Shown here: positions 1 to 16,664 of the stretch, one piece after another
Position numbering within the stretch: position 1 is the stretch's first letter
Layout of the letters: the number at the start of each line of letters is the position of its first letter
Source of the DNA: a virus
Direction: 5' to 3' (one strand)
Virus record (IMG/VR): IMGVR_UViG_3300010157_002315
Span: 1 to 23,985 of that record
Length of the DNA stretch: 23,985 bases
Notes under the pieces: model-generated
The model's input: only the letters and a program-made list of their open reading frames with translations
Told to the model about the DNA's origin: nothing
The model's database searches: none
Program-made: the position numbers and the translations under genes

Positions 1-885
1 AGGCTCGTTAGTCTTCATAAACTTGAGTTTAGCAATCAGTTTTTCTTTTGGAACTGCTTTAGTCTTACGTGGAGCACGGTTAACCTTAGCTTCTTGTGCA
101 AGCATTTCACATGCACTAGCAATTTCTTGATAAAATGCATGAATAGACTTAACCTGACGACGGGTAAGATGTTTATGACCTTCACGCAACTGTTCGTCAG
201 GAGCATCACCTAACAGTTCTTCAAGTTCTGCAAGGTCATGTGCATACAAATCACGAATGAAACGTGCATGAGCTGCCTTGGCACCCTTAGCTTTGAGCAA
301 GTTAAGCACCTTAAATGCTTTGGGATCAAAGTCTGTAGGATTCAATTGAAAGCTTTCAATTGCATCTTCAATTTCGGTAGTCATTGCATAGGCAGTATCA
401 CGAACACGCTCTTGTATTGAAATAACAAGTGCAGTACTTTTGACTTCTGCAACTGCTTCTTCGTCAATGTCGTCTTTACCGTCTGCAATAACATCAGTAA
501 TTTGTTTACGCAACCAAGCGGCGGTGTCCTTACCGTCGTTAAAATCCGCACGGACTGCCGGCATACCGCGAAGCAAACAACTAGCAATGGCACCCATTGT
601 GACATTACACCGATTATCTTTAGTTTTCTTAAATGCAATAATGTCTTCTTTAGTGCAACCAATTGTAGCCATCCATTTTAAAATTTGTGGCTTTAAATCC
701 TTGCCGCTAAATTCCAAACGGTAGTAGCTCATAGCACCATGCCAGTGGCGTAAGAATTGGCTAGCGTTCATGTCTTCTGCATTATCCCATTTTGGACTGT
801 AGTCCTTCTTGGCATTCTCTCGAATGGTCACACTGGTGATCTTTTTTGCTTTAGGTTTAATTTTTACGCCTGCTACTGTAGCCAT
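1..885 (-). CDS. Partial phage protein of unknown function (N-terminal 295 residues)
   Basis: An uninterrupted minus-strand reading frame runs from ATG at 885 off the left edge, so the C-terminus is missing. The start is supported by GGAG seven bases upstream and by a perfect sigma-70 promoter just before it. The visible 295 residues are hydrophilic and probably helical. The N-terminus is Lys-rich (MATVAGVKIKPKAKKITSVT), the middle has an aromatic stretch (FLRHWHGAMSYYRLEF) and there is an acidic patch near residues 139-146. The C-terminal part is again Lys/Arg-rich. No signal peptide, membrane segment or catalytic motif is visible. I do not recognise the family. The strong host-type promoter suggests early transcription; this is an inference. 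Confidence 0.85.
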   Translation of the reverse strand, partial: MATVAGVKIKPKAKKITSVTIRENAKKDYSPKWDNAEDMNASQFLRHWHGAMSYYRLEFSGKDLKPQILKWMATIGCTKEDIIAFKKTKDNRCNVTMGAIASCLLRGMPAVRADFNDGKDTAAWLRKQITDVIADGKDDIDEEAVAEVKSTALVISIQERVRDTAYAMTTEIEDAIESFQLNPTDFDPKAFKVLNLLKAKGAKAAHARFIRDLYAHDLAELEELLGDAPDEQLREGHKHLTRRQVKSIHAFYQEIASACEMLAQEAKVNRAPRKTKAVPKEKLIAKLKFMKTNEP

Positions 886-916
886 TTTCTGCTCCGTTTT
901 GTTAAACAATATGTAT

Positions 917-945
917 ATTATACTGTCTTTCTCTTTAACTGTCAA
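917..945 (-). promoter_or_regulatory. Perfect sigma-70 consensus promoter for the gene at 1-885
   Basis: On the minus strand TTGACA (940-945) is followed by a 17-base spacer and TATAAT (917-922), a full match to the bacterial housekeeping consensus at ideal spacing. The -35 box overlaps the stop codon TGA (942-944) of the upstream radical SAM gene. The start codon of the downstream gene lies about 30 bases beyond the -10 box with a good Shine-Dalgarno. This probably separates an early-type unit from the late-type radical SAM cluster. Confidence 0.85.
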
Positions 946-2201
946 TCAATTTTGGTTAGAATTTCGGCTAGCCAAGGCACATAATCTTCTATATTTTGGC
1001 TACGAATCTTATCCAATTTTGCAGTGTGTTCTTTCAAATCTTTGAGCGCATAGCTTCTATCTTGTGCAAGCATATAATTTAGGATACTATCAAACTGCGG
1101 TTGAAACTTTCTACGCCACGGTGCGCTAGCATACCATTTTTTGTACTCATCAGATATCCATACTTTAATTTCCGTTGGTAGTACTTGTATGTTCTGGTAA
1201 TGCGGTCCTTCGAGTATATGAAACGAGGGGTTTGGTCTAATATTAGGCATACGATTTTCTCTTAACCAATCGGTCATAGTTAATAATTCTAGAATATTAA
1301 AAACACTAATAGTAGGGGCAAACTTTGCCAACAAGTTTGCGCACGATGCATTACCTAATTTTAAAATATTTTCTTTTATGTCATTCCACTGCACAGGATA
1401 TCTCATATAGTATGCTAAATCACCTATAGCATCAATACTGCAACCAATATGTATTTCTTTAAATTGCGACCAGACGGTAAATGCGTTATCTGGAATAAGA
1501 GTCATGTTGGTATTATATTCTAAAATAATTTGACCGCTAACTCCTAGCTCTATACACAGATCTAATAATCTCCATTGTGCCTTGTTGATTAACGGTTCGC
1601 CGCCTGTCAAGTATAATCGATTTACGTTAGGGACAACCTGTCGCATCATATCCCAGAACTTTTCATCTTGATACCATGTAAAATCGTCATTCTTTAATGT
1701 CCAAGTATTGTTAGTTTGTTTTAATTGATAATTGTTAGTTGAATAAAAATCAAAATTATCACTTCCGGTTAGGTCAACAAAATCGTCATACCATAGACTG
1801 CTGTCCCATGGACCACAGCTACGGCATTTCATATTGCATAAATTTCCAAAACGTAAGTCAATATACTCTAATGGAAATTCGTCAGTGTTAATATATCCTG
1901 CCTGACTGTTTTTAATTTGTTCTATTGGATAATGCTTGAGCATGTGTAGGCGCTTACTGGATAATCCTGCACGTTCTTCATCCCAACATAAACGGCATTC
2001 TTCAGGTTCTTCTCCTGCAAGCATCTGAGACCGCACCCGCTGATGCAACTCACTATTTCTTGTTTGATCTATAGAGTGGTCTTGTACACGCATACCAGTC
2101 TTGCCAAATGGAGGATGTACACACTGGCAGCACATTCGGAAGTCTCCGTTTTGTTGCACACTTAAATGGTTCCAAGGCAAAGGACATATTTTATTCGTCA
2201 T
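942..2201 (-). CDS. Radical SAM protein with N-terminal Cys module (twitch/SPASM-like), 419 aa
   Basis: The radical SAM core is shown by C122-x3-C126-x2-C129 (LCNMKCRSC), which would bind the [4Fe-4S] cluster and SAM, and by TGGEP at 199-203. Ahead of it is an auxiliary Cys module: C6-PLPW, G19, C24-C25, C27, then C69-x2-CWDEERAG (69-79) with a following SSKR. The same arrangement recurs in the paralogues at 6474-7679, 7676-9064 and 9061-10464. Such proteins are usually annotated as twitch/SPASM-type radical SAM enzymes; those modules hold extra Fe-S clusters and often act on peptides, but the substrate here is unknown. The gene is divergent from the plus-strand radical SAM gene, with 28 bases between the starts. 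No Shine-Dalgarno precedes the ATG, so the message may be leaderless. Confidence 0.93.
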   Translation of the reverse strand: MTNKICPLPWNHLSVQQNGDFRMCCQCVHPPFGKTGMRVQDHSIDQTRNSELHQRVRSQMLAGEEPEECRLCWDEERAGLSSKRLHMLKHYPIEQIKNSQAGYINTDEFPLEYIDLRFGNLCNMKCRSCGPWDSSLWYDDFVDLTGSDNFDFYSTNNYQLKQTNNTWTLKNDDFTWYQDEKFWDMMRQVVPNVNRLYLTGGEPLINKAQWRLLDLCIELGVSGQIILEYNTNMTLIPDNAFTVWSQFKEIHIGCSIDAIGDLAYYMRYPVQWNDIKENILKLGNASCANLLAKFAPTISVFNILELLTMTDWLRENRMPNIRPNPSFHILEGPHYQNIQVLPTEIKVWISDEYKKWYASAPWRRKFQPQFDSILNYMLAQDRSYALKDLKEHTAKLDKIRSQNIEDYVPWLAEILTKID

Positions 2202-2214
2202 GATAATATATAGC

Positions 2215-2222
2215 TATAAATA
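2215..2222 (+). promoter_or_regulatory. T4 late-type promoter box TATAAATA
   Basis: An exact TATAAATA lies in the 28-base gap between two divergent radical SAM genes and ends seven bases before the plus-strand ATG at 2230. In T4-like phages this octamer is the -10 element read by the gp55 late sigma factor. Transcription would begin at or within a base or two of the ATG, and no Shine-Dalgarno is present. The assignment rests on motif identity and position only. Confidence 0.55.
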
Positions 2223-2229
2223 CTTCACT

Positions 2230-3285
2230 ATGACAAATAATGCAGATTTTACTCCAGGAAAGCCCATTAGGACCTATGCTAAAAATGGCGCATGGAGAGA
2301 TTGGAGTACTGACGAACTAGTTGGTGCAAAATTAAATTATCTTCCTGGCTGGAAATGTGGCGCGGGCGTAGATAGTTTATTCATCGATATGGATGGCGGA
2401 GTATGGACTGCCAGTTGTCGAGTAGGCGGCAAGTTGGGCAGTGTATGGGATGATTTTAGAGTTCCGGAAGATTGGATTGATTGTAAACGTAATGTATGCT
2501 CGTGTGGCGCAGATTTGTTTATTCCTAAAACACAAACTATTGAATTTAAATCTTTGCTACTTAAAGGGCAGGGATTGGAACCGCAAAATGAATTACGTGA
2601 TGATAATCAAACAGAATTTGTTGCCATGGAGCGTACTCATGCTAGTACACAAAAACAAGTATATTGGGAAATAGGCCGTCGTTGTAATTATGACTGTAGC
2701 TATTGCTGGCCTTGGATTCATAATAATACAGATCCCCACAAACCTTTAGAAGATTTAATGAAGGCCACTGCTCTCATTGAAGAAAGATTTACCAAAGGTG
2801 AGACTGTTAACTTTATTATTAGTGGCGGCGAGCCAACAGTTAATAAAGACTTTTTAGATTGGCTACGCTATCTAAATGCAATGGGTCATCATGTTAGCCT
2901 ACACAGCAACGGAAGTCGCTTACCTGACTACTATAGAGAAGTCATACACTATGGAGACTTAAACATTAGCGTACACTTTGAGTTTTATGATCGTGCAAAG
3001 TTAGTCAAGGTGATTGAAGCACTAGCGGATGAAAAAGCCAACAATGGGGGTAGCGGCCATTTAGAAATTAAGTTTATGATGACTCCAAAAGATCGAGAAG
3101 AAACCTTAAGTCTGGAAGCTGAACTAAAAGCACTACCGCACTTTGTTGAATACTGTACATGGGCTATTGTTCCTATTCGTGGCAGTCTTGAAAACAAAAC
3201 AAGTAGTCCTAATAGTGGAAGTGGAAGTGAGGTTATGGATGGTTATACTAAAGAAGATTATATTTTATTCGGGGATAGAAAATAA
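2230..3285 (+). CDS. Radical SAM protein with N-terminal permuted Cys domain, 351 aa
   Basis: This is the only plus-strand gene in the window. The core is C152-x3-C156-x2-C159 (RCNYDCSYCW) with SGGEP at 198-202 and SNGSR further on. Before it, residues 41-100 form a Cys-rich domain (WKCGAG, FIDMDG, CRVGG, then C85-x4-C90-x-C92). The same domain is at the C-terminus of the radical SAM protein at 11298-12245, so one of the two is permuted. The frame is open from 2101, but that would overlap the divergent neighbour; ATG at 2230 sits just after a TATAAATA box and gives a sensible N-terminus, so I chose it. The gene converges with the radical SAM gene at 3294-4499, eight bases away. The C-terminus ends in a Ser/Gly-rich stretch. 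The substrate is unknown. Confidence 0.9.
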   Translation: MTNNADFTPGKPIRTYAKNGAWRDWSTDELVGAKLNYLPGWKCGAGVDSLFIDMDGGVWTASCRVGGKLGSVWDDFRVPEDWIDCKRNVCSCGADLFIPKTQTIEFKSLLLKGQGLEPQNELRDDNQTEFVAMERTHASTQKQVYWEIGRRCNYDCSYCWPWIHNNTDPHKPLEDLMKATALIEERFTKGETVNFIISGGEPTVNKDFLDWLRYLNAMGHHVSLHSNGSRLPDYYREVIHYGDLNISVHFEFYDRAKLVKVIEALADEKANNGGSGHLEIKFMMTPKDREETLSLEAELKALPHFVEYCTWAIVPIRGSLENKTSSPNSGSGSEVMDGYTKEDYILFGDRK

Positions 3286-3293
3286 TATTATTT

Positions 3294-4499
3294 TTAAAGA
3301 TGCTGTTTTAGATACACTAATTCTTCTTTTATTTCAGGTATTATGTCTATAATACTGACATCTCTAGTCTTATCTAATCGAATAGTCGAATTTACAAATT
3401 TATCATGTAGGTCGTTGCCCACATACGGCTGAGTTCTTAGATAATTTATAACTACCTCATAAAATTCTGAATCAATTAATTCGTATTTTTGAGCTAATTT
3501 TTCTCTAGTAGGAGGTGATAATGCAGACACAATTCCATCTGCATAATTAACAAAAAAATTAAATTTTGTTTTTGCAATGAGTATCTTGTTTAGTGGCCAA
3601 ACAACGTTGTCCCACCATGTTCTAAATTCTTCAAGCCTATACACACTATACGCTCCAATAGCAAATGTATTACTAACACCTATAGTATTAGGCATCTCTA
3701 AAAACACTTTTATATTATTGAGTAAATTACTAACAGAACTAATTTCAGGATTCTTATATCCCCATCTTAACCATCTATTAAGTTCATCGGGCCCGTCTAT
3801 GCTAACCAAAAAACCTACCTCTTTTGCTTTTTTAAGAAGATCTAACATTTGATAATTTATATAGGTAGCGTTGGTATTTAACATAATTGTTATTTCTCCA
3901 AGTACTCCTATATTCTCTAGATGAGTTAATAATATAATGTTTTCTTTGTTTAAAAAGGGCTCACCGCCTTTTAACATGACGTTTTTTAGTTTTGAAAAAT
4001 CAATGTTAGAAAAAATTTCTTTAGAAAAATCTATGTCAGCAGGATGAATCTTCCAAGAAATTGCTTCAGTATTACTGCTAGGTTCTTTAATTTTATCTAA
4101 CCAATTCCATTCTTTATCAAACTCTGTCCATAAACTGCTGAAAGATGGACTACACATATAGCAAACAAGATTACAGGTGTTTGAACTATTATTTTCTAAA
4201 AATGTTAAAGACCCAGTTGTATCATATTCATTGTATTTTAAAATGTCTAATCGAGCACTTCTTCCTGCATTTTCTTCTGATGTTTTGCAGGATACACATC
4301 CTGGATTCCATACATGATTAAGCATGTCCTCTCTTAATTTTTGCAACCTCGGGCCTTTTAAAATTTTGTCAAGTGGGGTATCGTTTAAATTCCCTAACCC
4401 TCCTATAAACGCACAACAGGGAGTTACTCGTTTATTTGGATGTATACAAACACCATTAAACGGAGCCGAACACAAAGGGACAACATTATTATTGATCAT
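3294..4499 (-). CDS. Radical SAM protein with N-terminal Cys module, 401 aa
   Basis: The core motif is C109-x3-C113-x2-C116 (TCNLVCYMC), with LKGGEP near 176-181. The N-terminal module has C10-SAPF, C18, C28-C29 and C68-x2-C71 followed by a SEENAGRSAR stretch, a diverged form of the CWDEExAGxxSxR motif of its paralogues. The CSAPFN start of the module is shared with the protein at 5381-6490, so these two form a subgroup. The start follows AAGGAT at good spacing and abuts the stop codon of the SGNH-like gene upstream with no intervening base, so the two are probably co-translated. The reaction and substrate are unknown. It ends the contiguous minus-strand run that begins at 12921. Confidence 0.93.
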   Translation of the reverse strand: MINNNVVPLCSAPFNGVCIHPNKRVTPCCAFIGGLGNLNDTPLDKILKGPRLQKLREDMLNHVWNPGCVSCKTSEENAGRSARLDILKYNEYDTTGSLTFLENNSSNTCNLVCYMCSPSFSSLWTEFDKEWNWLDKIKEPSSNTEAISWKIHPADIDFSKEIFSNIDFSKLKNVMLKGGEPFLNKENIILLTHLENIGVLGEITIMLNTNATYINYQMLDLLKKAKEVGFLVSIDGPDELNRWLRWGYKNPEISSVSNLLNNIKVFLEMPNTIGVSNTFAIGAYSVYRLEEFRTWWDNVVWPLNKILIAKTKFNFFVNYADGIVSALSPPTREKLAQKYELIDSEFYEVVINYLRTQPYVGNDLHDKFVNSTIRLDKTRDVSIIDIIPEIKEELVYLKQHL

Positions 4500-5384
4500 T
4501 CAAAAATCCTTAAATTCGGTCATTTGAATATGATGCATAATTTTTTTAGATAATTCTTCAACTGCAATTTTAGTAGGATGGTATCCAGGAGTAATATAGA
4601 GATCGTAAGATTCATCTAATACCCAGCGCCAAGGTATACCAATATATGGATGTGTACTTATATCCAGTTCGTTGAATTCTTTACTATGTTTGTTAAGCGT
4701 ATTGTCACTGACTGTAAATTTAATCCAGTTGCTATTATCTAAATTATTAAAATTTAATCTAGTATGTTTTTTTAATATTACTAAGTCAGATTTTTTAGTT
4801 GCCTGGCCTAATGATTTCCAAAATGTGTATGTAATTCCTTCTGATTTTAAATAATTTTCTACTGCTAATATTCGAAACATACCATCAACTAACAGATCGA
4901 TATCTTTAGCACTAGCAAGCCATGCTATACTGTTTTCATAAAATTCGTTATATAGATTTTTATTCCAATCGTCGTTGTTAGATTTATACCAATCTAGCAT
5001 TGTGACATTAATGGTTGTAAACTTTTCAGTACTATTGCTCCATCTACACAGTCTAGCAGGCTCAGTCCACCCAATACATACATGAAGATTTTTTCTTTCT
5101 TCTGGGGTTAATTGGCTAATATACCCAATAGTTGTTAAGGCAATTTCGGAATTATTATTACCGTCTCTTGATAAATCAACTGATGTTGTATTCAACAATC
5201 TACTAAGAACTCCAGCAAAGTTATACTGGGGTCTTATTAATTTTGTATAGTTATCATGTATTTGGTTTTTATCTAATTTTGTTGATCTATGGAATTCTCG
5301 CCAGTTGCCGTGGGTTGCATGATCCCATGCAATATCATCGCCTGCGGTATAACTACATCCGTTAATCAATAGAGTTTTTTTCAT
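4500..5384 (-). CDS. SGNH/GDSL-hydrolase-like protein, 294 aa
   Basis: The N-terminus LLINGCSYTAGDD carries S11 in the position of the block I nucleophile of SGNH esterases. A later SRDGNNNSE (72-80) resembles block II with G75. Near the C-terminus GYHPTKIAVEEL has H269 in a block V-like position. The block III stretch is less typical (CIGWTEPARL), so catalysis is not certain. SGNH enzymes remove or transfer acyl groups, often O-acetyl on sugars. The start overlaps the stop of the upstream radical SAM gene (ATGA) and the stop abuts the next radical SAM gene, which puts it inside the same pathway. There is no signal peptide, so it would act in the cytoplasm. Confidence 0.7.
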   Translation of the reverse strand: MKKTLLINGCSYTAGDDIAWDHATHGNWREFHRSTKLDKNQIHDNYTKLIRPQYNFAGVLSRLLNTTSVDLSRDGNNNSEIALTTIGYISQLTPEERKNLHVCIGWTEPARLCRWSNSTEKFTTINVTMLDWYKSNNDDWNKNLYNEFYENSIAWLASAKDIDLLVDGMFRILAVENYLKSEGITYTFWKSLGQATKKSDLVILKKHTRLNFNNLDNSNWIKFTVSDNTLNKHSKEFNELDISTHPYIGIPWRWVLDESYDLYITPGYHPTKIAVEELSKKIMHHIQMTEFKDF

Positions 5385-6490
5385 ATGGTATTTATTTTAA
5401 TATGATTTTTACTTGTGTCGTACCAATTTTTTATTTGATTATGGATGAAATGATGACATTTTTTTAAATTACCAAACGGATCATCAGTGCCTAATGTTTC
5501 TAATTTTTCTGATAATGTGTTATATATAATTTTTAATTCTTCTTTAGATAAGTTCCAGATAGCTAAATGAGCAGGATGATGAATAGTATTGTACCATAAG
5601 TAAACTTTATTAGTATTGCAGAACTCTACAAAGTCCGGCATTTCCCACCAGTTATTACGCATTGGATTAATCATAACACTTAACATTCTATCATTATCAT
5701 GGCAGTACTTTTTAAAAATATCAAAGTTTTTCATTAACTCGCCAAACTCTCCGTTAACTCGTATTTCTTCGTAGTTGTTTTTATTAAGACTATCAATACT
5801 AATGTTTAAATGTAAATTACATCCATCCATAATTTTTTGAACTTGTTTATTGTAAACTGTTCCATTGGTGGCTATGTTGATTTTTAGACTAGGATTAATC
5901 TCAGCAGCTAGCATACATATATCGTATACAATTTTTTGTGCAAACGGTTCGCCACCATTAAAACGTAATTCTTCTAAATGCGGTATAAATTCTCTTAACT
6001 GTTCAACAAAAGTATCATCGTACAGCATTGGCATCGGCGGCAGTTTGTCGCGATTTTTTCTAATGCCCGAACTAAGGCGCCCCTCACACATGACACATTC
6101 TAAATTGCATTGATTGCTTAATTCTAACTCTAGCATGGTAGGATATTCCTTAATACTAAAGTGATCATATGCCATTGCTAATGGCCAATTGCCAACTTGT
6201 ATGTTATTTTTACAAACTTTACATTGTTCTTCAAAAATATTATTTTTTAAATTATTACGATATTTGTTAAATGCATCGCCCTTCCAAATATCTAAAATAG
6301 TTTTAGTGCCATCCCAATCTTCTAATGCACCTACTAGAAGCCAGCATGGACTAACTTTTCCGTCACTAGTAAAGTACATGTTATTAAATGGTGCAGAACA
6401 CGGACTGCGAGTATCTACAGATTTTAGCAAATCCATATTTTTTCGTTTTTCGTGATATTCCAATACTTCTTGTTCAGTTAATTTTTGCAT
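5381..6490 (-). CDS. Radical SAM protein with divergent N-terminal Cys module, 369 aa
   Basis: The core is C128-x3-C132-x2-C135 (QCNLECVMC) and NGGEP at 178-182. The auxiliary module begins at C31-SAPF after about 30 extra residues. It has a single C49 followed by Trp where most paralogues have CC, and then C90-x2-C93. The WDEE-x-AG motif is lost (KNNIQVGN instead). If the module binds an auxiliary Fe-S cluster, its ligation differs from that of the other members. The start lies 17 bases inside the end of the upstream radical SAM gene and the stop overlaps the start of the SGNH-like gene, so it is translationally linked on both sides. The substrate is unknown; the changed ligands suggest a distinct step in a shared pathway. 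Confidence 0.92.
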   Translation of the reverse strand: MQKLTEQEVLEYHEKRKNMDLLKSVDTRSPCSAPFNNMYFTSDGKVSPCWLLVGALEDWDGTKTILDIWKGDAFNKYRNNLKNNIFEEQCKVCKNNIQVGNWPLAMAYDHFSIKEYPTMLELELSNQCNLECVMCEGRLSSGIRKNRDKLPPMPMLYDDTFVEQLREFIPHLEELRFNGGEPFAQKIVYDICMLAAEINPSLKINIATNGTVYNKQVQKIMDGCNLHLNISIDSLNKNNYEEIRVNGEFGELMKNFDIFKKYCHDNDRMLSVMINPMRNNWWEMPDFVEFCNTNKVYLWYNTIHHPAHLAIWNLSKEELKIIYNTLSEKLETLGTDDPFGNLKKCHHFIHNQIKNWYDTSKNHIKINTI

Positions 6491-7679
6491 TTGTTAATAC
6501 TTTATACCATTCGTTAAATTCTATTTCAAATTTTTGATCTCTTATTTTATCAACTTCATTAACTTCATTAAAAAATAAATCTAATTCATCCTGGCCAGGT
6601 TGATTTAAAAAACTTAATAATTCATGTATTTTTTCTATTTTGCTATTCTTGTATTTTTCTATTAATATATTTTTAATCTGTTGTGGTAAATTTTTAATAC
6701 AGTTATAACTTGAGTGATGTAGTATATTAAAGAAGTATGATACTCCGTGTTCATTTAACCAGTTGTATATTTCGTCTAGATAAAAAATATTAAAATTACT
6801 TATAGTTGGGAAAATTGTAATAGATACATTGGAATTTTCGTTTTGTAGTTTTTTGTATTGCTTTAAGTTGTCTTCAATTGTTTTGAAATTACCTGGAAAT
6901 CTTTGATATTCATATCGATTATCAATATCATCTATGCTTAAGAATATTTGAGCATATTTAAATTTTTTAATGTACTGTAATACTTTATCATTTACTATTG
7001 TAGCATTAGTATTCATTAGAAATGTAATGTTCTTAGATAAGTCTAGGTCATCTAAAGTTTTTAATAACTTTAAGTTTTCCGGACTTGTCATAGGTTCGCC
7101 ACCTGTAATTTCTAAATGCTGTAGATCCTTCAACCAGTTAACAAATACTTCTTCATTGTTAGTATCAAAAAATTTATTTTCAAGCCAGTATTCGCTCCGG
7201 TATTCCGGATCGTGTTTATTTTCAATAATTTTAATACCATACCGTTGCTTATGTTCTTTAAACAAAGAGCTTGATGCCATTGGTCCGCAGATTCTACATT
7301 TAAGATTACACACATTACTCAGTTTTAAATCTAATGCTTTTGGTCCAGATTTATTAACTGGCAAAAATTCTATCTTAGAAATATCAATGTTTTGTGGAAA
7401 GTCCTGACGCATACTCCTAATTCCAGCTGATTCTTCATCCCAACATTGATGACACTCTTTAGGTTTTTTACCGTCTAAAAATGCTTTTCTTAAGTTTTGA
7501 AAACCTTGTGAATTCCACAGCACATCAATCCTGCCATCCTTCATATTAGGCAATTGTAATTCATTATTAATATTCGGTTGTGCAAATTTACAACACGGTC
7601 TTAGAGATCCATTGACATCAGTCGACAGATTAGTCCACGGCATTACGCAAAAACTATCGCCATAACTACCTAGATTCAT
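6474..7679 (-). CDS. Radical SAM protein with N-terminal Cys module, 401 aa
   Basis: The N-terminal module is complete: C11-VMPW, DVNG, C29-C30, then C76-x2-CWDEESAG (79-86) and SMR. The core is C124-x3-C128-x2-C131 (VCNLKCRIC) and TGGEP at 192-196. A later stretch, SIDDIDNRYEYQR, closely matches SVDDIGERFEYQR in the neighbouring protein at 7676-9064. The two also share LDLKLSN before the cluster, so they arose by duplication. The start overlaps the stop of that neighbour by four bases (ATGA) and is preceded by AAGAAGAG. The enzyme is expected to be a cytoplasmic Fe-S protein; its substrate is unknown. Confidence 0.94.
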   Translation of the reverse strand: MNLGSYGDSFCVMPWTNLSTDVNGSLRPCCKFAQPNINNELQLPNMKDGRIDVLWNSQGFQNLRKAFLDGKKPKECHQCWDEESAGIRSMRQDFPQNIDISKIEFLPVNKSGPKALDLKLSNVCNLKCRICGPMASSSLFKEHKQRYGIKIIENKHDPEYRSEYWLENKFFDTNNEEVFVNWLKDLQHLEITGGEPMTSPENLKLLKTLDDLDLSKNITFLMNTNATIVNDKVLQYIKKFKYAQIFLSIDDIDNRYEYQRFPGNFKTIEDNLKQYKKLQNENSNVSITIFPTISNFNIFYLDEIYNWLNEHGVSYFFNILHHSSYNCIKNLPQQIKNILIEKYKNSKIEKIHELLSFLNQPGQDELDLFFNEVNEVDKIRDQKFEIEFNEWYKVLTNAKIN

Positions 7680-9064
7680 GTCTTACTCTTCTTTAATAAA
7701 TCATGTAATTCTGGAAAAGTTTGTTCAAATGATTCTTCTCGATACCCGTCATGTAAATTAACTACGTCATAAAATTTTTCAATCATTGCAGGGTCATTAT
7801 CATTTAACATCATAAAGTTAATAATGTCTTTTATGCTAATTGAATCTCTATTAAATTTTATATTACTATAATCTATAGTTTCTAATTTTGTTTTTACTAT
7901 TTCTTTAACGTCTTTAGGTAAATTTTTAATGTTAAAGTGATCAGGGTAATGTACTAGGTTCAGCCATATTTGCAAATTAAACTTTTCAGCTTCTTTTAAA
8001 AATTCAGGTAGATACAAAACATTCATTATTCCAACAGTACAGTATATGTTAAACTCGTACTTTAGTTGATGCTTGTCTGCATGTTCAACAAATAATGCAA
8101 GATTCTTAAACACATCGTCATATACTGCATTTTTTCTTTGATATTCAAATCTTTCGCCTATATCATCAACACTAAAATTAATAGTGATAAACGAACATTT
8201 TTTCCAGTACTCAAAAAACTTAGGATTAAATTGTGTCGAATTACTGTTATAAAAAAATCTTAATCTTTCAGTAGTACCATAGGTTGTTATAATTTCCAAC
8301 ACCTTACTATGTTCTTGTTGTATTAGTGGTTCTCCACCGTAGAATTCGATGTCAGTTATATTAGGCGCCCATTGTTTCAATATTTCTTCGTTGTACGTAT
8401 CTTCAAATAATTTTTCACGAGAGTTCTCAGTGTAAATTTTAATAACATTGTCATCTGCCAGTTTTAAATCTTTATGTTCTTTAATCCATTGGCTAGATAA
8501 AAATGGGGTACATATTCTACATTTTAAATTACATAAATTACTGAGCTTTAGATCTAAGTGGTCTGGACTTTGGCTAGGAACTTTTACAAACAAATTATAT
8601 CGAGGATTCTCTTTACCACCATTTTGCACTACTTGTCTAAGGCTTTTCATACCAGCCGCTTCTTCATCCCAACATACCTTACAACCTTCAGGTCGTTGAT
8701 TTCGCATAAACTGATCACGGATCATAACAAACTCATCTTGATTCCATAATTCGTCTAAGTTTTTATTAGGTAATTTTGTATGATCATTTAGATCCGGTGC
8801 CACACCGTTTTTGTATTTACAACAAGGTTTGGCCCTACCATCAGGATCTATTTGTAATCTTGCAAACGGTAGCACACAAAAATTATCTGGAATATTGTCA
8901 ACGATATCGTTGTCAGAAAGCTCACCCGCACTTCTTTTACCTTCTAATTTTTTAGATATATCCCAGTTATATATCTCGTCAATTTTTTTACACAACCCTA
9001 CCATTGTGTCCCACTCCCAATGCTGGTATGGGGTGCTATAAAAATTCCATTCTTTTTTAATCAT
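7676..9064 (-). CDS. Radical SAM protein with N-terminal Cys module, 462 aa
   Basis: A paralogue of the downstream gene with about 55 extra N-terminal residues rich in Trp and Tyr. The module reads C63-VLPF, DPDG, C81-C82, C128-x2-CWDEEAAG, SLR; the core is C178-x3-C182-x2-C185 (LCNLKCRIC) with YGGEP near 242-246. I place the start at ATG 9064, which overlaps the TGA of the upstream gene as ATGA, like other junctions here. An in-frame ATG at 9076 would add four residues with a longer overlap. The C-terminal third has an NLVHYPDHFNIKNLP stretch that mirrors ILHHSSYNCIKNLP in the paralogue. Function beyond radical SAM chemistry cannot be assigned. Confidence 0.93.
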   Translation of the reverse strand: MIKKEWNFYSTPYQHWEWDTMVGLCKKIDEIYNWDISKKLEGKRSAGELSDNDIVDNIPDNFCVLPFARLQIDPDGRAKPCCKYKNGVAPDLNDHTKLPNKNLDELWNQDEFVMIRDQFMRNQRPEGCKVCWDEEAAGMKSLRQVVQNGGKENPRYNLFVKVPSQSPDHLDLKLSNLCNLKCRICTPFLSSQWIKEHKDLKLADDNVIKIYTENSREKLFEDTYNEEILKQWAPNITDIEFYGGEPLIQQEHSKVLEIITTYGTTERLRFFYNSNSTQFNPKFFEYWKKCSFITINFSVDDIGERFEYQRKNAVYDDVFKNLALFVEHADKHQLKYEFNIYCTVGIMNVLYLPEFLKEAEKFNLQIWLNLVHYPDHFNIKNLPKDVKEIVKTKLETIDYSNIKFNRDSISIKDIINFMMLNDNDPAMIEKFYDVVNLHDGYREESFEQTFPELHDLLKKSKT

Positions 9065-10464
9065 AATGTTTTGCAATAGTTGTAAAATTCTGTATATTCA
9101 GGAAATGTTTCTACTAAATTAAGACCACGACGTTGATCAAAGGTATTGTACCATTCATAAAACTTCTTACGATCTTCAGTATAGTCTCCATCGTTAGTTG
9201 CCATACTGTCCGCCAGGCTCTTTAAAAATATCATATATTGATCATATCGACCGTGAAAGTCAGTTGGATTAGGTATTCTGCTAACATGCTGTTCCATGTA
9301 TTCAATTGTTTCGTATAGATATTTTGAAAATTCTGATGGTAATATCATGGGGTTTTGCCACTTAGGAAAGTTAACAATATTTTGTTTTAGTCCAATAGGT
9401 CGTTGATATTGGTCTGACAAGTTAGTTGCATACTCTACAAAGTTTTTAGTAGTAGCAATACTTAATACATTAACAGACATTAGAAATCCTATTTGGAATT
9501 CAGAATCTTTAACAGCTAGAATTTTATTTACATTTGAGTTAAATCGATCCCACGAGATGCCATTGCGAATGTACTCAGCACGATTTTCTAAACTCTCCAT
9601 ACTAATTAAAATTTCTAAATCAAATACTTTTGTAATTTTAGGAAGACTGTTGATAAATTTATTAAAATAATTAGCAGGTGTATGCATGTTTGTCACAATA
9701 CACAGTGTCGGCTTTAATCTTTTAATAGGCATTATTTTATCAAATCGAGCAGTCATTTTTTCTACATACTCATAGAATTCAGGAATAATAAGAGGTTCGC
9801 CACCAATCATATTAATTCGGTGTATGCTCCAGCTTCCGACTGAATTAAACCACTCCCAGAATTTAGCTTCATAACTGGGTGCTGTTTTTGGAAACTCTCG
9901 ATCATATTGTTCTTGCGTGATTTCACCTATCTTTATTAGTTCTGTTGCCCACTGTGTTGAGTAATGATGATTACAGTACATACATTTTAAATCACATGTA
10001 TTGCCTAGACTGATTTCCATCATGTAAGGTTTTCTAGCCTTTAAAAATGGATGATTTACGGAATTAATTTTTCCTAGTTCTACACGTACATTCTCTTCAT
10101 TGTACTCTATGTCTCGAGGAATAACACGCTCACGTTTTAAGAAGTTCCAAAAATTTTCTGGTTCTCTAGGACTCTTCATGCCTCGGTCTTCTAAGTTCCA
10201 GCAGCTCTGACAGTCAGCGTGCCTAACACCGTTGATCAAATCTAGACGACTTTGAATAATTTCATCATTGTTTAAAAAGGCATCTATGCCTTTTTCCTGT
10301 AGTAAAGATTCAGGCACCTGCTTTGATGGAGTACGACAGCAACTTCTAAACTCGCCACGGTCCATTTGAAATATTGGATAATTCCATTTAAACTCACACA
10401 TGGTATCCATAGGATTACCTGCTACGGGCGATTCGGGTAATATTGGTATTATTTTATTATTCAT
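9061..10464 (-). CDS. Radical SAM protein with N-terminal Cys module, 467 aa
   Basis: The auxiliary module is C23-EFKW, C42-C43, C85-x2-CWNLEDRG and SPR; the core is C157-x3-C161-x2-C164 (TCDLKCMYC), with IGGEP at 220-224. The module and core are separated by a longer linker than in its neighbours, with an aromatic segment (FWNFLKRE). A large insert near residues 170-215 holds KFWEWFNSVGSW. The ATG overlaps a TGA (ATGA) that closes a 65-base remnant of a sulfotransferase gene, and a TTTAAATA box ends four bases before the ATG. The gene therefore was, or still is, coupled to that remnant. The substrate is unknown. Confidence 0.93.
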   Translation of the reverse strand: MNNKIIPILPESPVAGNPMDTMCEFKWNYPIFQMDRGEFRSCCRTPSKQVPESLLQEKGIDAFLNNDEIIQSRLDLINGVRHADCQSCWNLEDRGMKSPREPENFWNFLKRERVIPRDIEYNEENVRVELGKINSVNHPFLKARKPYMMEISLGNTCDLKCMYCNHHYSTQWATELIKIGEITQEQYDREFPKTAPSYEAKFWEWFNSVGSWSIHRINMIGGEPLIIPEFYEYVEKMTARFDKIMPIKRLKPTLCIVTNMHTPANYFNKFINSLPKITKVFDLEILISMESLENRAEYIRNGISWDRFNSNVNKILAVKDSEFQIGFLMSVNVLSIATTKNFVEYATNLSDQYQRPIGLKQNIVNFPKWQNPMILPSEFSKYLYETIEYMEQHVSRIPNPTDFHGRYDQYMIFLKSLADSMATNDGDYTEDRKKFYEWYNTFDQRRGLNLVETFPEYTEFYNYCKTL

Positions 10465-10525
10465 GATATATTTAAAGCAGTAAGAACCTCATTAATATTT
10501 GAAATCCTAACAAACAAATTCTCAT
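10461..10525 (-). pseudogene. Deletion scar of a third sulfotransferase-like gene
   Basis: An ATG at 10525 overlaps the stop of the upstream sulfotransferase-like gene (ATGA). It opens MRICLLG, whose codons match the start of the sulfotransferase-like gene at 12921 in 23 of the first 24 bases (reading ATGAGAATTTGTTTGTTAGG here). Immediately after, in a different frame, the sequence encodes ISNINEVLTALNIS and a TGA that overlaps the next gene's ATG. That tail resembles the IVNADEV stretch near the C-terminus of the 12226-12921 protein. The simplest reading is an intact paralogue that lost all but its first seven and last fourteen codons by a frame-breaking internal deletion, keeping both overlap junctions. 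Read in the first frame it encodes only 17 residues. Confidence 0.72.
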
Positions 10526-11298
10526 AGGTTGTTAGTAGAAAACATATTATCTACTTGTTCTTTTATTTTTAATAACTGATCATAATTTTGTATAATTTCA
10601 CTGTAATCAACATCATAGACTTTTCTAGAATGTGTATAATTTTGGAATGGTATTTTATTATTGATACAATCAAATCTTAAGTTGTTATAGTTAACTGTTG
10701 TACATCCTAATAAATCTGCTATCTTTTGTTTTTCTATATTTGCCTGCTTCATTTGAAAATATGCTGCTTTAAAATCTAGTGCAGGTACAATAATATTGGG
10801 AATATTAATTTTAGTTTTTTCACCATTACTAGTTGACCAGAACTCGCCCTTAGTAGTTTCCCACTTGTGATTTATGCCGGTTAACCCGGCTACTGCTGAA
10901 CTTATTGTACTGTCAAATGTATCTCTAATAAGATTAACTATAATAATCTTATGATCTTGGATTCTTTGAAGATTATCTAAGTCGTTAGTTTCTTTTAATG
11001 GTCGTGTCATATACATATATTTTAAAACTAATGGCTGATTAATATCACCTTTTAATAATATATCTACTCTAGAATTTACAAAATTAGTAGGATTTAAAAC
11101 TTCGTAAGGTTCTGTCTCAAAAAACTCTTTAATAATATTATTGTCGTCTAGTTTATATCTACTATTGATTCGAGTAAATGGAGTACAAAATTCATGTAAA
11201 TTAATATAATTTTTAAATCGATGATAAGTATGACCAATGCCGTTAGTTAGCCATGTACTCCCTGTTCGAGGAATTGATAACACGCAATATCGAAACAT
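10522..11298 (-). CDS. Sulfotransferase-like protein, 258 aa
   Basis: The N-terminus LSIPRTGSTWL (7-17) matches the 5'-phosphosulfate-binding loop of PAPS-dependent sulfotransferases. NLIRDTFDSTISS (122-134) fits the 3'-phosphate-binding motif with conserved Arg, Asp and Ser. The length is typical of small bacterial and phage sulfotransferases. It would move a sulfuryl group from PAPS to a hydroxyl or amine of a glycan, lipid or small molecule in the cytoplasm; the acceptor is not known. The start overlaps the stop of the radical SAM gene at 11298-12245 as TAATG with AAGGA upstream, so the two are coupled. A P-loop kinase-like role cannot be excluded, but the RDxxDS pattern favours sulfotransferase. 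Confidence 0.75.
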   Translation of the reverse strand: MFRYCVLSIPRTGSTWLTNGIGHTYHRFKNYINLHEFCTPFTRINSRYKLDDNNIIKEFFETEPYEVLNPTNFVNSRVDILLKGDINQPLVLKYMYMTRPLKETNDLDNLQRIQDHKIIIVNLIRDTFDSTISSAVAGLTGINHKWETTKGEFWSTSNGEKTKINIPNIIVPALDFKAAYFQMKQANIEKQKIADLLGCTTVNYNNLRFDCINNKIPFQNYTHSRKVYDVDYSEIIQNYDQLLKIKEQVDNMFSTNNL

Positions 11299-12245
11299 TA
11301 TTTTTCCTTAGTACACATGATATCAAAATTACAATGGCACATGGTCTTATTACAAATAACTGGATCCATTGGTAGTTGCAATTTTGTATCTTCAATATGC
11401 CCAATAACTCCTCCTACCTTACACCATCCTCGATGAATGGTGCCGTCCATATCGACAATCAATTGTTCAATGCCCGCGTAGCATTTCCACCCTAACCAAT
11501 TGTTGGTTTTTTCGCTGATAAATCTGTGGGCACTAGATACTAAACTTTTGCCTTCATCATTTACTGCTCGCATTGCACCTCGATAGTAATCAAACTTCTT
11601 GTCAAACTTGATATGTTTAGTAATCAACTCATGTTGTTTATCAAATATTTTCTTTTGGAATTCAGTGTAATCAAATAATGTATCACCAAAATCGTGAATC
11701 AATGGTTGTAAGGCCATTGAGATATTACCTAAATTCTTTACTTTATTTGCTACTGCATAGCAGTGATCAAACTTTTCAGGACTCATCATAATATTAACGT
11801 GTGTACGAACATCGTTATGTAATAATTTAACTACATTAACAAAATGTTCATCATCTGCAAACTCTGGATGATAGCTTAAACACACATGGTCAAAGAACTG
11901 CATGTTTTCTTCCCAGTATCTTAATGTACGTGACCCATTGCTGATCAAACCTACTTTAATACCCATCTCTGTACAAAACTGACAAATCTCAATAAAGTCT
12001 TTATACATAGTGACTTCACCGCCGGTAAATTCAAAATAGATATTTTTATGAAAATAGTGATCTTTTACTTTTGCAATAAAGTTTTTAATTACCTGCGGAT
12101 CTGGCCAACGTTTAGATCCGTCATGCAGGGACGCTGGGCAATAACTACATTCGAAATTACAAGTATTACCAAGACACCAGTTTACTACAAACCAATCTTC
12201 ATGACCAGGATTAGAATGTTCTAGTTTAATATATTGTTCTGTCAT
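11298..12245 (-). CDS. Radical SAM protein with C-terminal Cys domain, 315 aa
   Basis: The core sits at the N-terminus: C29-x3-C33-x2-C36 (TCNFECSYC) and TGGEV at 74-78, then SNGSR near 102-106. The C-terminal 63 residues form a SPASM-like Cys domain: WKCYAG (C255), VDMDG, C275-KVGG, C298-x4-C303-x-C305 and C311. Cys spacings of 20, 22-23, 5 and 2 match those of the N-terminal domain in the plus-strand protein at 2230-3285. Core features are shared too (SNGSR, MMSP versus MMTP), so the two are homologues with permuted domain order. The start overlaps the end of the upstream sulfotransferase-like gene by 20 bases, and the stop overlaps the next sulfotransferase-like gene by one. It is thus sandwiched between two sulfotransferase-like genes. 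Confidence 0.92.
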   Translation of the reverse strand: MTEQYIKLEHSNPGHEDWFVVNWCLGNTCNFECSYCPASLHDGSKRWPDPQVIKNFIAKVKDHYFHKNIYFEFTGGEVTMYKDFIEICQFCTEMGIKVGLISNGSRTLRYWEENMQFFDHVCLSYHPEFADDEHFVNVVKLLHNDVRTHVNIMMSPEKFDHCYAVANKVKNLGNISMALQPLIHDFGDTLFDYTEFQKKIFDKQHELITKHIKFDKKFDYYRGAMRAVNDEGKSLVSSAHRFISEKTNNWLGWKCYAGIEQLIVDMDGTIHRGWCKVGGVIGHIEDTKLQLPMDPVICNKTMCHCNFDIMCTKEK

Positions 12246-12921
12246 TTAATAATCTTTTTATATGTTCTTTTACTTCATCGGCATTTACAATCATATCGTA
12301 CGGATCATCGATTACTTGTTTTTTTAATAAAGTATGTGTTCGAATTGGAGTCTTTAGATATTTAGATAAATCTTCAATGGCATGTTCATATCTTATAGTT
12401 GGAACATTTATTTTAAATTGCGTAATTAATTCATCAAATTTTAACATATCGCTATATAACCAATCTGCATTGGTTATATTAGTAATAGTTATAGGTGAAA
12501 TATGTTCGCCATCGAGAGAGCACCATTTATTACTTTCCTCGGCAATTAACCAACTTAACAGTTGATGTTCAATATTTTCTCTTTTTACAATTAAGAAATT
12601 AAAATTTAACTCTTGCAAATCATTAATTATTTTTTCTATAAACGGCACAGTTGGTTGTGTTAGAAACACCTTCATTATTATTGGATGGTCTGTCCTTCCA
12701 AGTTTTAACGTAGTACTTACATATTCAATTTGATCTTTGAACGAAGAAAAGTTCATAGTATTTTTTACAATCTTTAGATGTCCGTCTTCTTTGATTATAG
12801 TATATTCGTGTCCAGGAGTATATGGCTCTGCTAAGTTTGAGCAGAACTGTAATGTCCCCTTAATTAATCCTGAAATAAATTGACTGCCACATCTTGGTAG
12901 TCCTAATAAACAAATTCTCAT
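12226..12921 (-). CDS. Sulfotransferase-like protein, 231 aa, first gene of the cluster
   Basis: LLGLPRCGSQFI (5-16) resembles the 5'-phosphosulfate loop of sulfotransferases, with Cys and Gln replacing the more usual Thr and Thr. VKRENIEHQLLSWLIA (112-127) occupies the place of the 3'-phosphate motif (R-x-x-x-x-x-x-L/S). The remainder, including the IRYEHAIEDL segment, fits small sulfotransferase folds. It is only distantly related to the protein at 10522-11298 but close to the decayed copy at 10461-10525. No Shine-Dalgarno precedes the ATG; an exact TATAAATA ends four bases upstream. It heads the minus-strand radical SAM transcription unit. The acceptor is unknown. Confidence 0.68.
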   Translation of the reverse strand: MRICLLGLPRCGSQFISGLIKGTLQFCSNLAEPYTPGHEYTIIKEDGHLKIVKNTMNFSSFKDQIEYVSTTLKLGRTDHPIIMKVFLTQPTVPFIEKIINDLQELNFNFLIVKRENIEHQLLSWLIAEESNKWCSLDGEHISPITITNITNADWLYSDMLKFDELITQFKINVPTIRYEHAIEDLSKYLKTPIRTHTLLKKQVIDDPYDMIVNADEVKEHIKRLLNDRTIY

Positions 12922-12925
12922 ATGC

Positions 12926-12933
12926 TATTTATA
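12926..12933 (-). promoter_or_regulatory. T4 late-type promoter box TATAAATA heading the radical SAM cluster
   Basis: The minus strand reads TATAAATAGCATATG, with the ATG being the start of the first sulfotransferase-like gene. The octamer is identical to the T4 late consensus, and it lies just downstream (in the direction of transcription) of a terminator at 12952-12994. Initiation here would give a leaderless or nearly leaderless message. The motif alone does not prove use. Confidence 0.6.
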
Positions 12934-13002: not shown

Positions 13003-13260
13003 TTACTTCTTAGCTGGTTCAGCTTTCTTTTCTACTACTGGTTTTTCAATCTTTGGCATTTCTTTAGGTTGCTTTTTGCACTCAGTCTTTTCTGCATTGG
13101 CTTTATCTTTGCAGTCAGTGTGTGCAGATTTTGGAACACGAACTTCCATAGTCTTGCCATTAACTTTGACATCTTTTTCTTCTGCATACGCCATACTCAT
13201 AGTAGCCGCAAGGCATACTGCATAGATGACAGCTAATTGTAATACTAATAATTTTTTCAT
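13003..13260 (-). CDS. Small exported protein, Lys/Glu/Pro-rich, 85 aa
   Basis: The N-terminus is a classical Sec signal peptide: MKK, a hydrophobic run to about residue 23 and a likely cleavage after AYA (26). The mature part of about 59 residues has C50 and C61, which could form a disulfide, and a Lys/Glu/Pro/Ala-rich tail (KPVVEKKAEPAKK). AAGGAG precedes the ATG at good spacing. A hairpin terminator lies upstream and another downstream, so it is probably its own unit; a TGTAAATA box (13284-13291) could serve as a late promoter. The protein would sit in the periplasm of a Gram-negative host. The family is not recognised; it may have been taken from a host or modulate the envelope during infection. 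Confidence 0.82.
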   Translation of the reverse strand: MKKLLVLQLAVIYAVCLAATMSMAYAEEKDVKVNGKTMEVRVPKSAHTDCKDKANAEKTECKKQPKEMPKIEKPVVEKKAEPAKK

Positions 13261-13319: not shown

Positions 13320-13576
13320 CTATATGCTTCCATTGCTCGTGCTCTGGCTACTGCTAATCTAACCAGCACATAATCACTAAGATCATCGTCTGGTTGGATT
13401 GTTTTCGACTTGTCTAAATCTCTACGACGATAACTTGTTATTAGATCTTCATCGTCGATGGTACTGGAAGGATCGCTCCCTCCAAGTATCAAAGATTTTC
13501 TAAGTGGATTACTTCTTAACAGCTTCTGTTTTGGTATCCTTAGCGGCAGGTGCTGGAGCCGCACTTTTAGTGGCAT
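13304..13576 (-). CDS. Small phage hypothetical protein; start uncertain (62-90 aa)
   Basis: The convincing part is the C-terminal 62 residues, acidic then helical (DDEDLITSYRRRDL, then SDYVLVRLAVARARAMEAYR). The only in-frame ATG, at 13576, would overlap the preceding exported-protein gene by 68 bases, has no Shine-Dalgarno, and gives a Leu/Arg/Lys-rich leader that looks like out-of-frame reading of that gene. A TTG at 13492, 16 bases after the upstream stop, is a plausible alternative start giving 62 residues. The stop lies within a terminator hairpin. There is no signal peptide or known motif. Function is unknown. Confidence 0.6.
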   Translation of the reverse strand: MPLKVRLQHLPLRIPKQKLLRSNPLRKSLILGGSDPSSTIDDEDLITSYRRRDLDKSKTIQPDDDLSDYVLVRLAVARARAMEAYRKAQA

Positions 13577-13745
13577 CAGCTTTTGCGACCTCTTTCTTTG
13601 CAGTCTTGTGTGGGGCAGGACTTGCTGTCACAGCTGGAGCACTTGCTGTAGTAGCTGGGGCAGGAGTTGCAGGTGCCTTAGCTGGCTCAGCGGCAAAAGC
13701 AGTTGCGGCAAATAAGGTTGCGATTAAAGTTGCGGTTGATTTCAT
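13509..13745 (-). CDS. Small exported Ala/Pro/Lys-rich protein, 78 aa
   Basis: A Sec signal peptide is visible (MKSTATLIATLFAATAFA, cleavage likely after residue 18). The mature protein of 60 residues is almost entirely Ala, Pro, Lys, Thr and Ser and carries no Cys or aromatic residue except one His. It should be an unfolded, positively charged periplasmic chain. AAGGA precedes the ATG at 9-10 bases. Composition is like the tail of the exported protein at 13003-13260, which suggests related roles. The low-complexity sequence prevents family assignment. It could bind cell wall or nucleic acid, or be cleaved; this is a guess. Confidence 0.78.
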   Translation of the reverse strand: MKSTATLIATLFAATAFAAEPAKAPATPAPATTASAPAVTASPAPHKTAKKEVAKADATKSAAPAPAAKDTKTEAVKK

Positions 13746-15975: not shown

Positions 15976-16664
15976 TATTTTCTATCGCCAAATAATTGTA
16001 GTAAGTTAATAAACAAGTTAATAAAGTCCATATAAAGCGTTAGAGCACCACGAACTTCTGCACTATCACTAGTTTCTATGCTGAGTTCTTCACGTATCTT
16101 TTGGGTGTCATAGGCAGTCAATCCAAGAAAGATAATAATTGCTAATGCTGAGATAACCATTTGCATAACTGTACTACCAATAAAGATGTTAACAATACTG
16201 GCAATGATGATCGCAATCAATCCCACAAACATAAACTTGCCTAGACTGTCTAGACTCTGTTTAGTAAAATACCCATATCCACTCATCACACCAAACAGAA
16301 TAGCCGCACCCATAAATGCTGACACAATACTGCCCATAGTGAACACCGCAAAGATAGTAGCAAAGCTCAGGCCCATTAGTGCCGCAAAACCGTGTAAGCA
16401 TAGTTGTGCTATACTCTTGCTAGGATTATTGGCTAGTACCATCATAACACCAAAGATTGCCGCAAGTGGAGAGAAAATCACAATCCACTTCATTACACCT
16501 GTAAAAAAGAAAGCTAACAACTCTGGGCTAGTGCCTACGAAGTAGCTGACAATCATTGATACAATAACAGCCAAACTCATGTGTCCGTAGACACGACCCA
16601 TTGCTGAATTAATCTCACTAGCAGAACGATATGACATTCCGCCTGTATAACTTGTTCCAAACAT
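15975..16664 (-). CDS. Bax inhibitor-1 / YccA family membrane protein, 229 aa
   Basis: Seven hydrophobic segments span the protein from about residue 29 to the C-terminus, and the length is typical of bacterial members (about 220-235). The C-terminal signature is present: LTAYDTQKI with D186 and LYMDFINLFINLLQLFG with D213, the paired acidic residues that gate pH-sensitive Ca2+ leak in the family member BsYetJ. E. coli YccA of this family interacts with the FtsH protease. In a phage the protein would lie in the inner membrane, possibly altering ion flow, membrane proteolysis or lysis timing; this is an inference. AAGGAG precedes the ATG, one base after the previous stop. Confidence 0.93.
   Translation of the reverse strand: MFGTSYTGGMSYRSASEINSAMGRVYGHMSLAVIVSMIVSYFVGTSPELLAFFFTGVMKWIVIFSPLAAIFGVMMVLANNPSKSIAQLCLHGFAALMGLSFATIFAVFTMGSIVSAFMGAAILFGVMSGYGYFTKQSLDSLGKFMFVGLIAIIIASIVNIFIGSTVMQMVISALAIIIFLGLTAYDTQKIREELSIETSDSAEVRGALTLYMDFINLFINLLQLFGDRK

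Follow-up and report, generated by a model that had tools for sequence, protein, structure and literature searches.

In T4-like aquatic phages, the host recognition cluster of the pelagimyophages forms a hypervariable island with tail fibers, glycosyltransferases of family GT8, and cassettes of radical S-adenosylmethionine (radical SAM, rSAM) genes (Zaragoza-Solas et al. 2020; PMC7029224). Another report describes TARA_ERS488813_N000010, a T4-like viral genome in which 12 rSAM genes are present, and reads them as part of Fe-S metabolism (PMC5332604). In Baltic viruses, 261 auxiliary genes have been annotated as ahbD (PMC9301287). BtrN of butirosin biosynthesis is a twitch rSAM dehydrogenase that oxidizes an aminocyclitol, a sugar-like compound (PMC9012708). 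In this study, we analyzed 23,985 bases of DNA from a large freshwater phage (the window; IMG/VR record IMGVR_UViG_3300010157_002315), of which positions 942 to 12921 hold a cassette of eleven intact genes: eight for rSAM enzymes, two for sulfotransferase-like proteins, and one for an SGNH-like protein. Since relatives carry this cassette beside tail-fiber and sugar-transferase genes, the product that we consider most likely, at about an even chance, is a modified sugar of an unusual kind destined for the virion.

As in the pelagimyophage cluster, rSAM, GT8, and fiber genes occur together in the relatives of the window, the GT8 pair of the window's own lineage being located elsewhere. The published cluster lies between VrlC and gp14, and neither gene was identified in the window or in the longer contig that contains it, both of which are fragments. 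In the published account, in contrast, rSAM genes are named only as added cassettes and no sulfotransferase is mentioned (PMC7029224). The present analysis goes beyond it by resolving gene order, orthologue groups, partners, and cellular counterparts, as well as a structural gene held in common with Rak2/Atu_ph07-type jumbo phages. TARA_ERS488813_N000010 resembles the window in the large number of rSAM genes within a single phage genome; the passage that describes them gives no pathway and no link to sulfotransferase, SGNH, or fiber genes (PMC5332604). Because of these two records, the kind of locus is already known. The ordered multi-paralogue cassette, its permuted modules, its link to sulfotransferase and SGNH genes, and its Bacteroidota counterpart appear undescribed. 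In the open-licence literature, we found no paper that links rSAM enzymes, sulfotransferases, and phages, or rSAM SPASM proteins and polysaccharides or glycans, which is weak evidence of absence.

An earlier note on this DNA had reported eight rSAM genes with CxxxCxxC and GGEP/GGEV motifs. Both motifs were found in all eight genes, each of them open and intact, and the proteins matched Pfam Radical_SAM (PF04055) with E values from 7e-6 to 2e-16. Seven of the eight passed the PF04055 cutoff, with T0 falling below it (26.7 versus 29.5 bits). Six of the proteins, T0 to T5, are N-twitch rSAMs encoded on the minus strand. The NCBIfam model NF033640 (N_Twi_rSAM) has a curated cutoff of 170 bits, which was reached by five of them with scores of 193.6 to 352.3 bits: T0 (9061 to 10464; 242.5 bits, E value of 7.8e-72), T2 (7676 to 9076; 327.2 bits), T1 (6474 to 7679; 317.7 bits), T5 (3294 to 4499; 193.6 bits), and T4 (942 to 2201; 352.3 bits, E value of 3.6e-105). 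T3 (5381 to 6490) scored 147.8 bits and is therefore called a close relative only, whereas the two remaining rSAMs, C0 and C2, were far below the cutoff and stand outside the family. To our knowledge, NF033640 has no assigned function and is named for its domain.

The N-terminal module of the T proteins can be aligned to the twitch at the C terminus of BtrN together with its four cysteines (E value of 7.5e-7), which places the twitch of the NF033640 family in a permuted position. Within this module, C8, C26, C73, and C76 are invariant (alignment A10), and their spacing is like that of BtrN. The T proteins are thus predicted to carry a BtrN-type auxiliary cluster domain. In the phylogenetic tree, T2 forms a single clade with a Shimodaira-Hasegawa-like approximate likelihood ratio test (SH-aLRT) support of 98, and T4, T5, and others likewise form single clades, which indicates that the paralogues are old and that each has been kept. 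T3 groups with N_Twi proteins of a Chitinophagales genome (L121; SH-aLRT of 95), and T1 and T2 lie near others of that cluster.

C0 (11298 to 12245, minus strand; Radical_SAM E value of 6.9e-11; alignment A6) and C2 (2230 to 3285, plus strand; Radical_SAM E value of 1.9e-16) carry a SPASM-like cysteine module at opposite ends, C0 at its C terminus and C2 at its N terminus. The two modules are homologous, with 39% identity over 59 amino acids, and the rSAM core is common to both proteins (hhalign probability of 99.8%). A PDB profile search with C0 gave no match at 0.001. Of all cassette genes, C0 is conserved best, with 50 to 100% identity in the 80 viral loci listed among its matches.

The two sulfotransferase-like genes and the SGNH-like gene proposed in the earlier note are supported at the level of the fold. 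Neither SULFa (12226 to 12921, minus strand), which opens the main operon, nor SULFb of the same family (10522 to 11298, minus strand) matched a Pfam family; they are therefore named sulfotransferase-fold proteins and not assigned to one. SULFa has the 5'-phosphosulfate-binding motif PRxGS(Q/T) and an Arg/Ser 3'-phosphate-binding motif, and SULFb has the motif SIPRTGSTWL. In the alignment of the family (A1), P9, R10, G12, R114, and S123 are invariant, so that both the 5' loop and the 3' Arg/Ser pair are in place. The AlphaFold2 model of SULFa has a predicted local distance difference test (pLDDT) score of 90.8, and its best PDB match was the trehalose sulfotransferase Stf0 (Z score of 12.6, root mean square deviation [rmsd] of 3.5 Å over 185 residues). 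Heparan 3-OST followed with a Z score of 10.9 (about 11), and generic P-loop kinases came next at about 10. A PDB profile search with the SULF family returned weak matches only, and all five were sulfotransferases.

For the SGNH-fold protein (4500 to 5384, minus strand; GCS, GxxN, and HP motifs), the AlphaFold2 model (pLDDT of 79) was closest to Escherichia coli TesA (Z score of 14.5, rmsd of 3.0 Å over 168 residues), with carbohydrate esterases at about 12. Ser11, G75, N78, and H269 are invariant (alignment A2). There was no Pfam match, and the PDB profile search gave nothing useful. A scan for close homologues found only the window's own lineage, which is misleading, because clustering revealed 38 homologues.

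Ten cassette genes lie on the minus strand and one, C2, on the plus strand. They overlap or abut, with intergenic distances of -20 to +57 nucleotides. The overlaps described in the earlier note were observed. C2, opposite in strand to the rest, starts at the ATG at 2230, not at the open reading frame (ORF) start at 2101. Since no gap exceeds 57 nucleotides, the cassette has no room for a further gene, including one for a precursor peptide, in agreement with the note. For the closest pairs of those cassette genes that have a suitable homologue, nonsynonymous divergence was far below near-saturated synonymous divergence. A simple hydropathy scan predicted no membrane segment in any cassette protein. 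The window matches part of a 55,284-base IMG/VR parent contig, with identity tested at both ends. The downstream flank of the cassette is c17 (1 to 945, minus strand; phrog_11903), which is cut by the end of the window. In the parent contig, a fiber-like gene lies past c17, one gene from the cassette (phrog_6002, virion structural; phrog_2617, short tail fiber).

The earlier note also placed a late-type promoter box at the cassette. The window has three copies of the box TATAAATA against 4.2 expected, overall no more than chance. Two of the three copies lie directly in front of the two transcription units of the cassette, one 4 nucleotides before the ATG of SULFa (12926 to 12933, minus strand) and the other 7 nucleotides before the ATG of C2 (2215 to 2222, plus strand). 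Among 37 C2 homologues, 14 likewise have the box close to their start. Late expression of the cassette is likely, judging by these positions. If they act as T4-type late promoters, the boxes would give transcripts with almost no leader. No clear Shine-Dalgarno sequence was seen between the boxes and the ATG, and a spacing of 4 to 8 nucleotides recurs in relatives.

IMG/VR scans with four cassette genes identified relatives in more than 100 loci. All-against-all clustering covered 2,167 ORFs, and 46 viral loci remained after dereplication at 95% C0 identity. Single linkage initially merged C1 into the C0 cluster; CxxxCxxC is missing from 11 of the 102 proteins counted as "C0", some of which are C1-like, so that C0 counts are slightly high. 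The recurring gene order is the structural genes STR11/13 and STR6, the fiber gene FIB7, STR3, p102, GT8, GT8, p112, C1, C0, and sulfotransferase, followed by T0, T2, T1, T3, and SGNH and then, on the opposite strand, a B12-binding rSAM and C2. Among the 46 loci, C1 was present in 33, GT8 in 32, STR3/p102 in 30, FIB7 in 26, the B12-binding rSAM in 20, T0 in 18, sulfotransferase in 15, and SGNH in 10. Strict adjacency of T0, T2, T1, T3, and SGNH was seen in 6 of 46, a count kept low by intervening small ORFs and by contig ends. FIB7 has a Peptidase_G2 chaperone domain (E value of 5.9e-8), and the GT8 proteins match glycogenin (E value of 3.5e-5). Variants of the cassette encode UDPG/GDP-Man dehydrogenase, NAD epimerase, cytidylyltransferases, and carbamoyltransferase, the region being a hotspot whose gene content varies between relatives. 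The idea of a linked multistep pathway, advanced in the earlier note, is well supported, as dozens of viral contigs repeat the same set with its order conserved and Bacteroidota chromosomes hold part of it. Neither of the outcomes that would have spoken against it was observed: profile searches did not place the proteins in unrelated characterized families, and relatives occur as linked sets rather than always alone.

In a 345-kb relative (G001), the local arrangement is as in the window lineage, with the STR6-FIB7-STR3-p102-GT8-GT8-C1 block about 80 kb from its C0-SULF-C2 locus. STR6 homologues are present in Rak2/Atu_ph07-type jumbo phages. In the Agrobacterium phage Atu_ph07 and the Sinorhizobium phage Phosso, three to five rSAM genes follow the STR6 and FIB7 homologues, making rSAM genes after a fiber gene a repeated theme. 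They occupy the same place as in the window's relatives but belong to other rSAM families with other partners, and no sulfotransferase, SGNH, or GT8 homologue was found there. Past the fiber gene, these rSAMs are interleaved with conserved proteins of no known function (L236, 19001 to 25162; L237, 18236 to 25360), among which a protein of 296 to 306 amino acids could be a virion substrate. One 117-kb viral contig holds up to 22 rSAM genes. Three contigs filed as metagenome-assembled genomes of Rickettsiales, Pelagibacter, and Betaproteobacteria (L122, L123, and L124) contain the GT8-GT8-C1-rSAM block of the phages and are themselves probably of phage origin, having been binned into these genomes.

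A cellular counterpart was found in Bacteroidota. A region of a Chitinophagales chromosome contains eight or nine N_Twi genes, T1-T3-like ones among them, inside a polysaccharide locus. The sugar enzymes of this locus are GT2, a sugar nucleotidyltransferase, a GDP-mannose-dehydratase-type enzyme, a DegT aminotransferase, and a C-methyltransferase; the same locus encodes Sulfotransfer_4, SGNH/AlgX-like proteins, two B12-binding rSAMs, a carbamoyltransferase, and an ABC transporter. N_Twi proteins were detected at an E value of 1e-40 or less in 34 of 150 genomes of the order Chitinophagales, most of which had two or more, often in tandem. A general census at 20 mixed bacterial N_Twi loci was noisy, whereas a focused Bacteroidota census with controls was informative. 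Its 119 neighbors, from 19 of 20 fetched loci, included GDSL/SGNH (24), Gly_transf_sug (10), Caps_synth (9), UbiA (7), Asn_synthase (6), PhyH (6), and B12-binding (3) domains. The SGNH family contributed 38 genes in 14 of 20 N_Twi loci versus 3 genes in 1 of 20 control regions, a comparison that favors the case side in that the profile was grown from a case-locus seed. For AsnB, the counts were 9 at N_Twi loci and 0 in the controls. The control regions were of equal size, from nearly the same genomes, and hand-picked at arbitrary coordinates. N_Twi-like matches numbered 42 in genome G019 (L137) and 26 in genome G018 (L127), where some long tandem arrays adjoin ATP synthase genes.

We propose a late-expressed sugar-remodeling pathway that yields an unusual glycan, most likely on the tail fiber or another virion surface protein, and hold this proposal at the even chance given above. 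Each of the six twitch rSAMs, as well as C0 and C2, would perform one radical step on a sugar or glycan, such as alcohol oxidation, epimerization, deoxygenation, or a similar reaction. The two sulfotransferase-fold enzymes would add sulfate from 3'-phosphoadenosine 5'-phosphosulfate, and the SGNH enzyme would put on or take off an O-acyl group. The GT8 pair, perhaps with C1, which belong to the fiber module in relatives, would transfer the sugar to its acceptor. Gene position and the late boxes are what point to the fiber in this role. The resulting glycan on the particle would be unusual and often sulfated, and exchange of cassette genes would make it differ from one phage to another.

This pathway is supported by the conserved fiber-GT8-C1-C0-SULF-T-SGNH order, by the match of GT8 to glycogenin, and by the sugar-nucleotide enzymes in cassette variants. 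It is further supported by the fold of SULFa, nearest to carbohydrate sulfotransferases, by the likeness of the twitch to that of the aminocyclitol dehydrogenase BtrN, and by the recurrence of SGNH, glycosyltransferases, and AsnB around N_Twi arrays in 20 Bacteroidota genomes. Several points weigh on the other side. The substrate, the product, and the virion glycan are predictions from the genes. By sequence, the rSAM core is nearest to several enzymes, among them peptide maturases such as SkfB. No gene of the window was recognized as a glycosyltransferase, and the 55-kb parent contig, itself a fragment, had no match to GT8. C1 is a candidate glycosyltransferase by a DxD-like motif only, as a PDB profile search brought no confirmation and its hhalign probability against GT8 was 1.4%. 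In the SGNH protein, the Asp expected at H-3 in the DxxH block V is not conserved. The N_Twi arrays of G018 and G019 have no evident glycan genes nearby, so that the link between N_Twi and glycan genes is strong in one order and not universal. We suggest tentatively, and with the chances leaning against it, that N_Twi rSAMs together with SGNH proteins and glycosyltransferases form a carbohydrate radical-chemistry system of Bacteroidota and aquatic jumbo phages, in which the phages coat their tail fibers with sulfated, multiply radical-edited, cassette-reshuffled glycans.

The pathway could instead alter the surface polysaccharide of the infected host (O-antigen or capsule), for example, against superinfection, and not the virion. 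The pelagimyophage authors read the glycosyltransferases of cassettes with GT8 and rSAM genes in this way (PMC7029224), and cellular N_Twi arrays adjoin surface-polysaccharide-type genes (AlgX-like, ABC transporter, UbiA, and Caps_synth). In the loci examined, however, no membrane protein, flippase, polymerase, or exporter was found in the cassette or as a recurrent cassette family, the promoters appear to be of the late type, and fiber genes are adjacent in most loci. We regard a role at the host surface, the strongest of the alternatives, as unlikely, while taking it seriously. Of the targets named in the earlier note, the virion is thus favored by the linkage to fiber genes, the host envelope is a possible one, and nucleic acid has little support.

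It is rather improbable that the rSAMs modify amino acids of a virion (fiber) protein directly, in the manner of ribosomally synthesized and posttranslationally modified peptides without a small precursor, with sulfation and acyl chemistry following. The closest solved rSAM cores do include peptide-modifying enzymes such as SkfB, and Atu_ph07 and Phosso have their three to five rSAMs of other families past the STR6 and FIB7 homologues. The cassette, on the other hand, has neither a precursor peptide nor the space for one, a distant precursor being possible, and no maturase family exceeded its cutoff in the profile searches. The partner genes are sugar enzymes. Of the rSAM substrates suggested earlier, a peptide is accordingly less well supported than a sugar, given the company of glycosyltransferases, sugar-nucleotide enzymes, and carbohydrate-sulfotransferase folds in which the rSAMs occur. 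In sum, the observation made in the earlier note is confirmed and its interpretation partly supported.

We give still less credence to the view that these are unlinked auxiliary metabolic genes, for instance, heme or cofactor enzymes, that have accumulated in a hypervariable region and share no product. Gene content in the region does vary among relatives, and elsewhere ahbD annotations have been given to virus genes that have these Pfam domains (PMC9301287). Distinct orthologue groups nevertheless keep a conserved order across divergent phages, the genes are under purifying selection, bacteria show the same types of partners, and the AhbD model scored far below its cutoff. The Baltic-virus ahbD genes may be SPASM/twitch rSAMs of the window's kind rather than heme genes. 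Synthesis of a modified nucleotide of the 7-deazaguanine or hypermodified-thymine type for phage DNA or tRNA is very improbable, since a QueD-like gene beside a fiber gene downstream in the parent contig (L163, 4518 to 4967; possibly of a 7-deazaguanine pathway) and weak PHROG QueE matches stand against a best QueE score (TIGR03365) of 23.5 bits, for C2, versus a cutoff of 206, and against conserved partners that are fiber and sugar genes, not DNA-modification genes.

Other genes surround the cassette. Directly upstream are two small Lys/Ala/Pro-rich ORFs with signal-peptide-like starts (13003 to 13260 and 13509 to 13745, minus strand), the place of which is taken in L015 and L018 by a phosphate-binding protein that is PstS-like by eye. 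Two tryptophan-halogenase genes (phrog_2928) were found, one upstream of the cassette (14812 to 15975) and one elsewhere in the parent contig (L161, 7548 to 8708); the latter region also has a candidate B12-type rSAM (L161, 2583 to 4061). A membrane protein of six segments, Bax-inhibitor-1-like by eye (15975 to 16664, minus strand), is kept at the same place in relatives. The top PHROG label of the gene at 19032 to 19625 (minus strand) is DNA endonuclease V, yet 2OG-Fe(II) oxygenase families also match, and the label may be wrong.

If the cassette does remodel sugars for the virion, it would give a function to the large rSAM family NF033640, whose members form tandem arrays, and would provide a new source of carbohydrate-modifying radical enzymes. 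The heme (ahbD) and Fe-S "auxiliary metabolic gene" labels of such phage genes would be corrected. Part of the question can be tested now in isolates whose rSAM genes are placed alike, such as Phosso on Sinorhizobium meliloti. For the phages themselves, it would mean that more than 10 kb is spent on one virion glycan.

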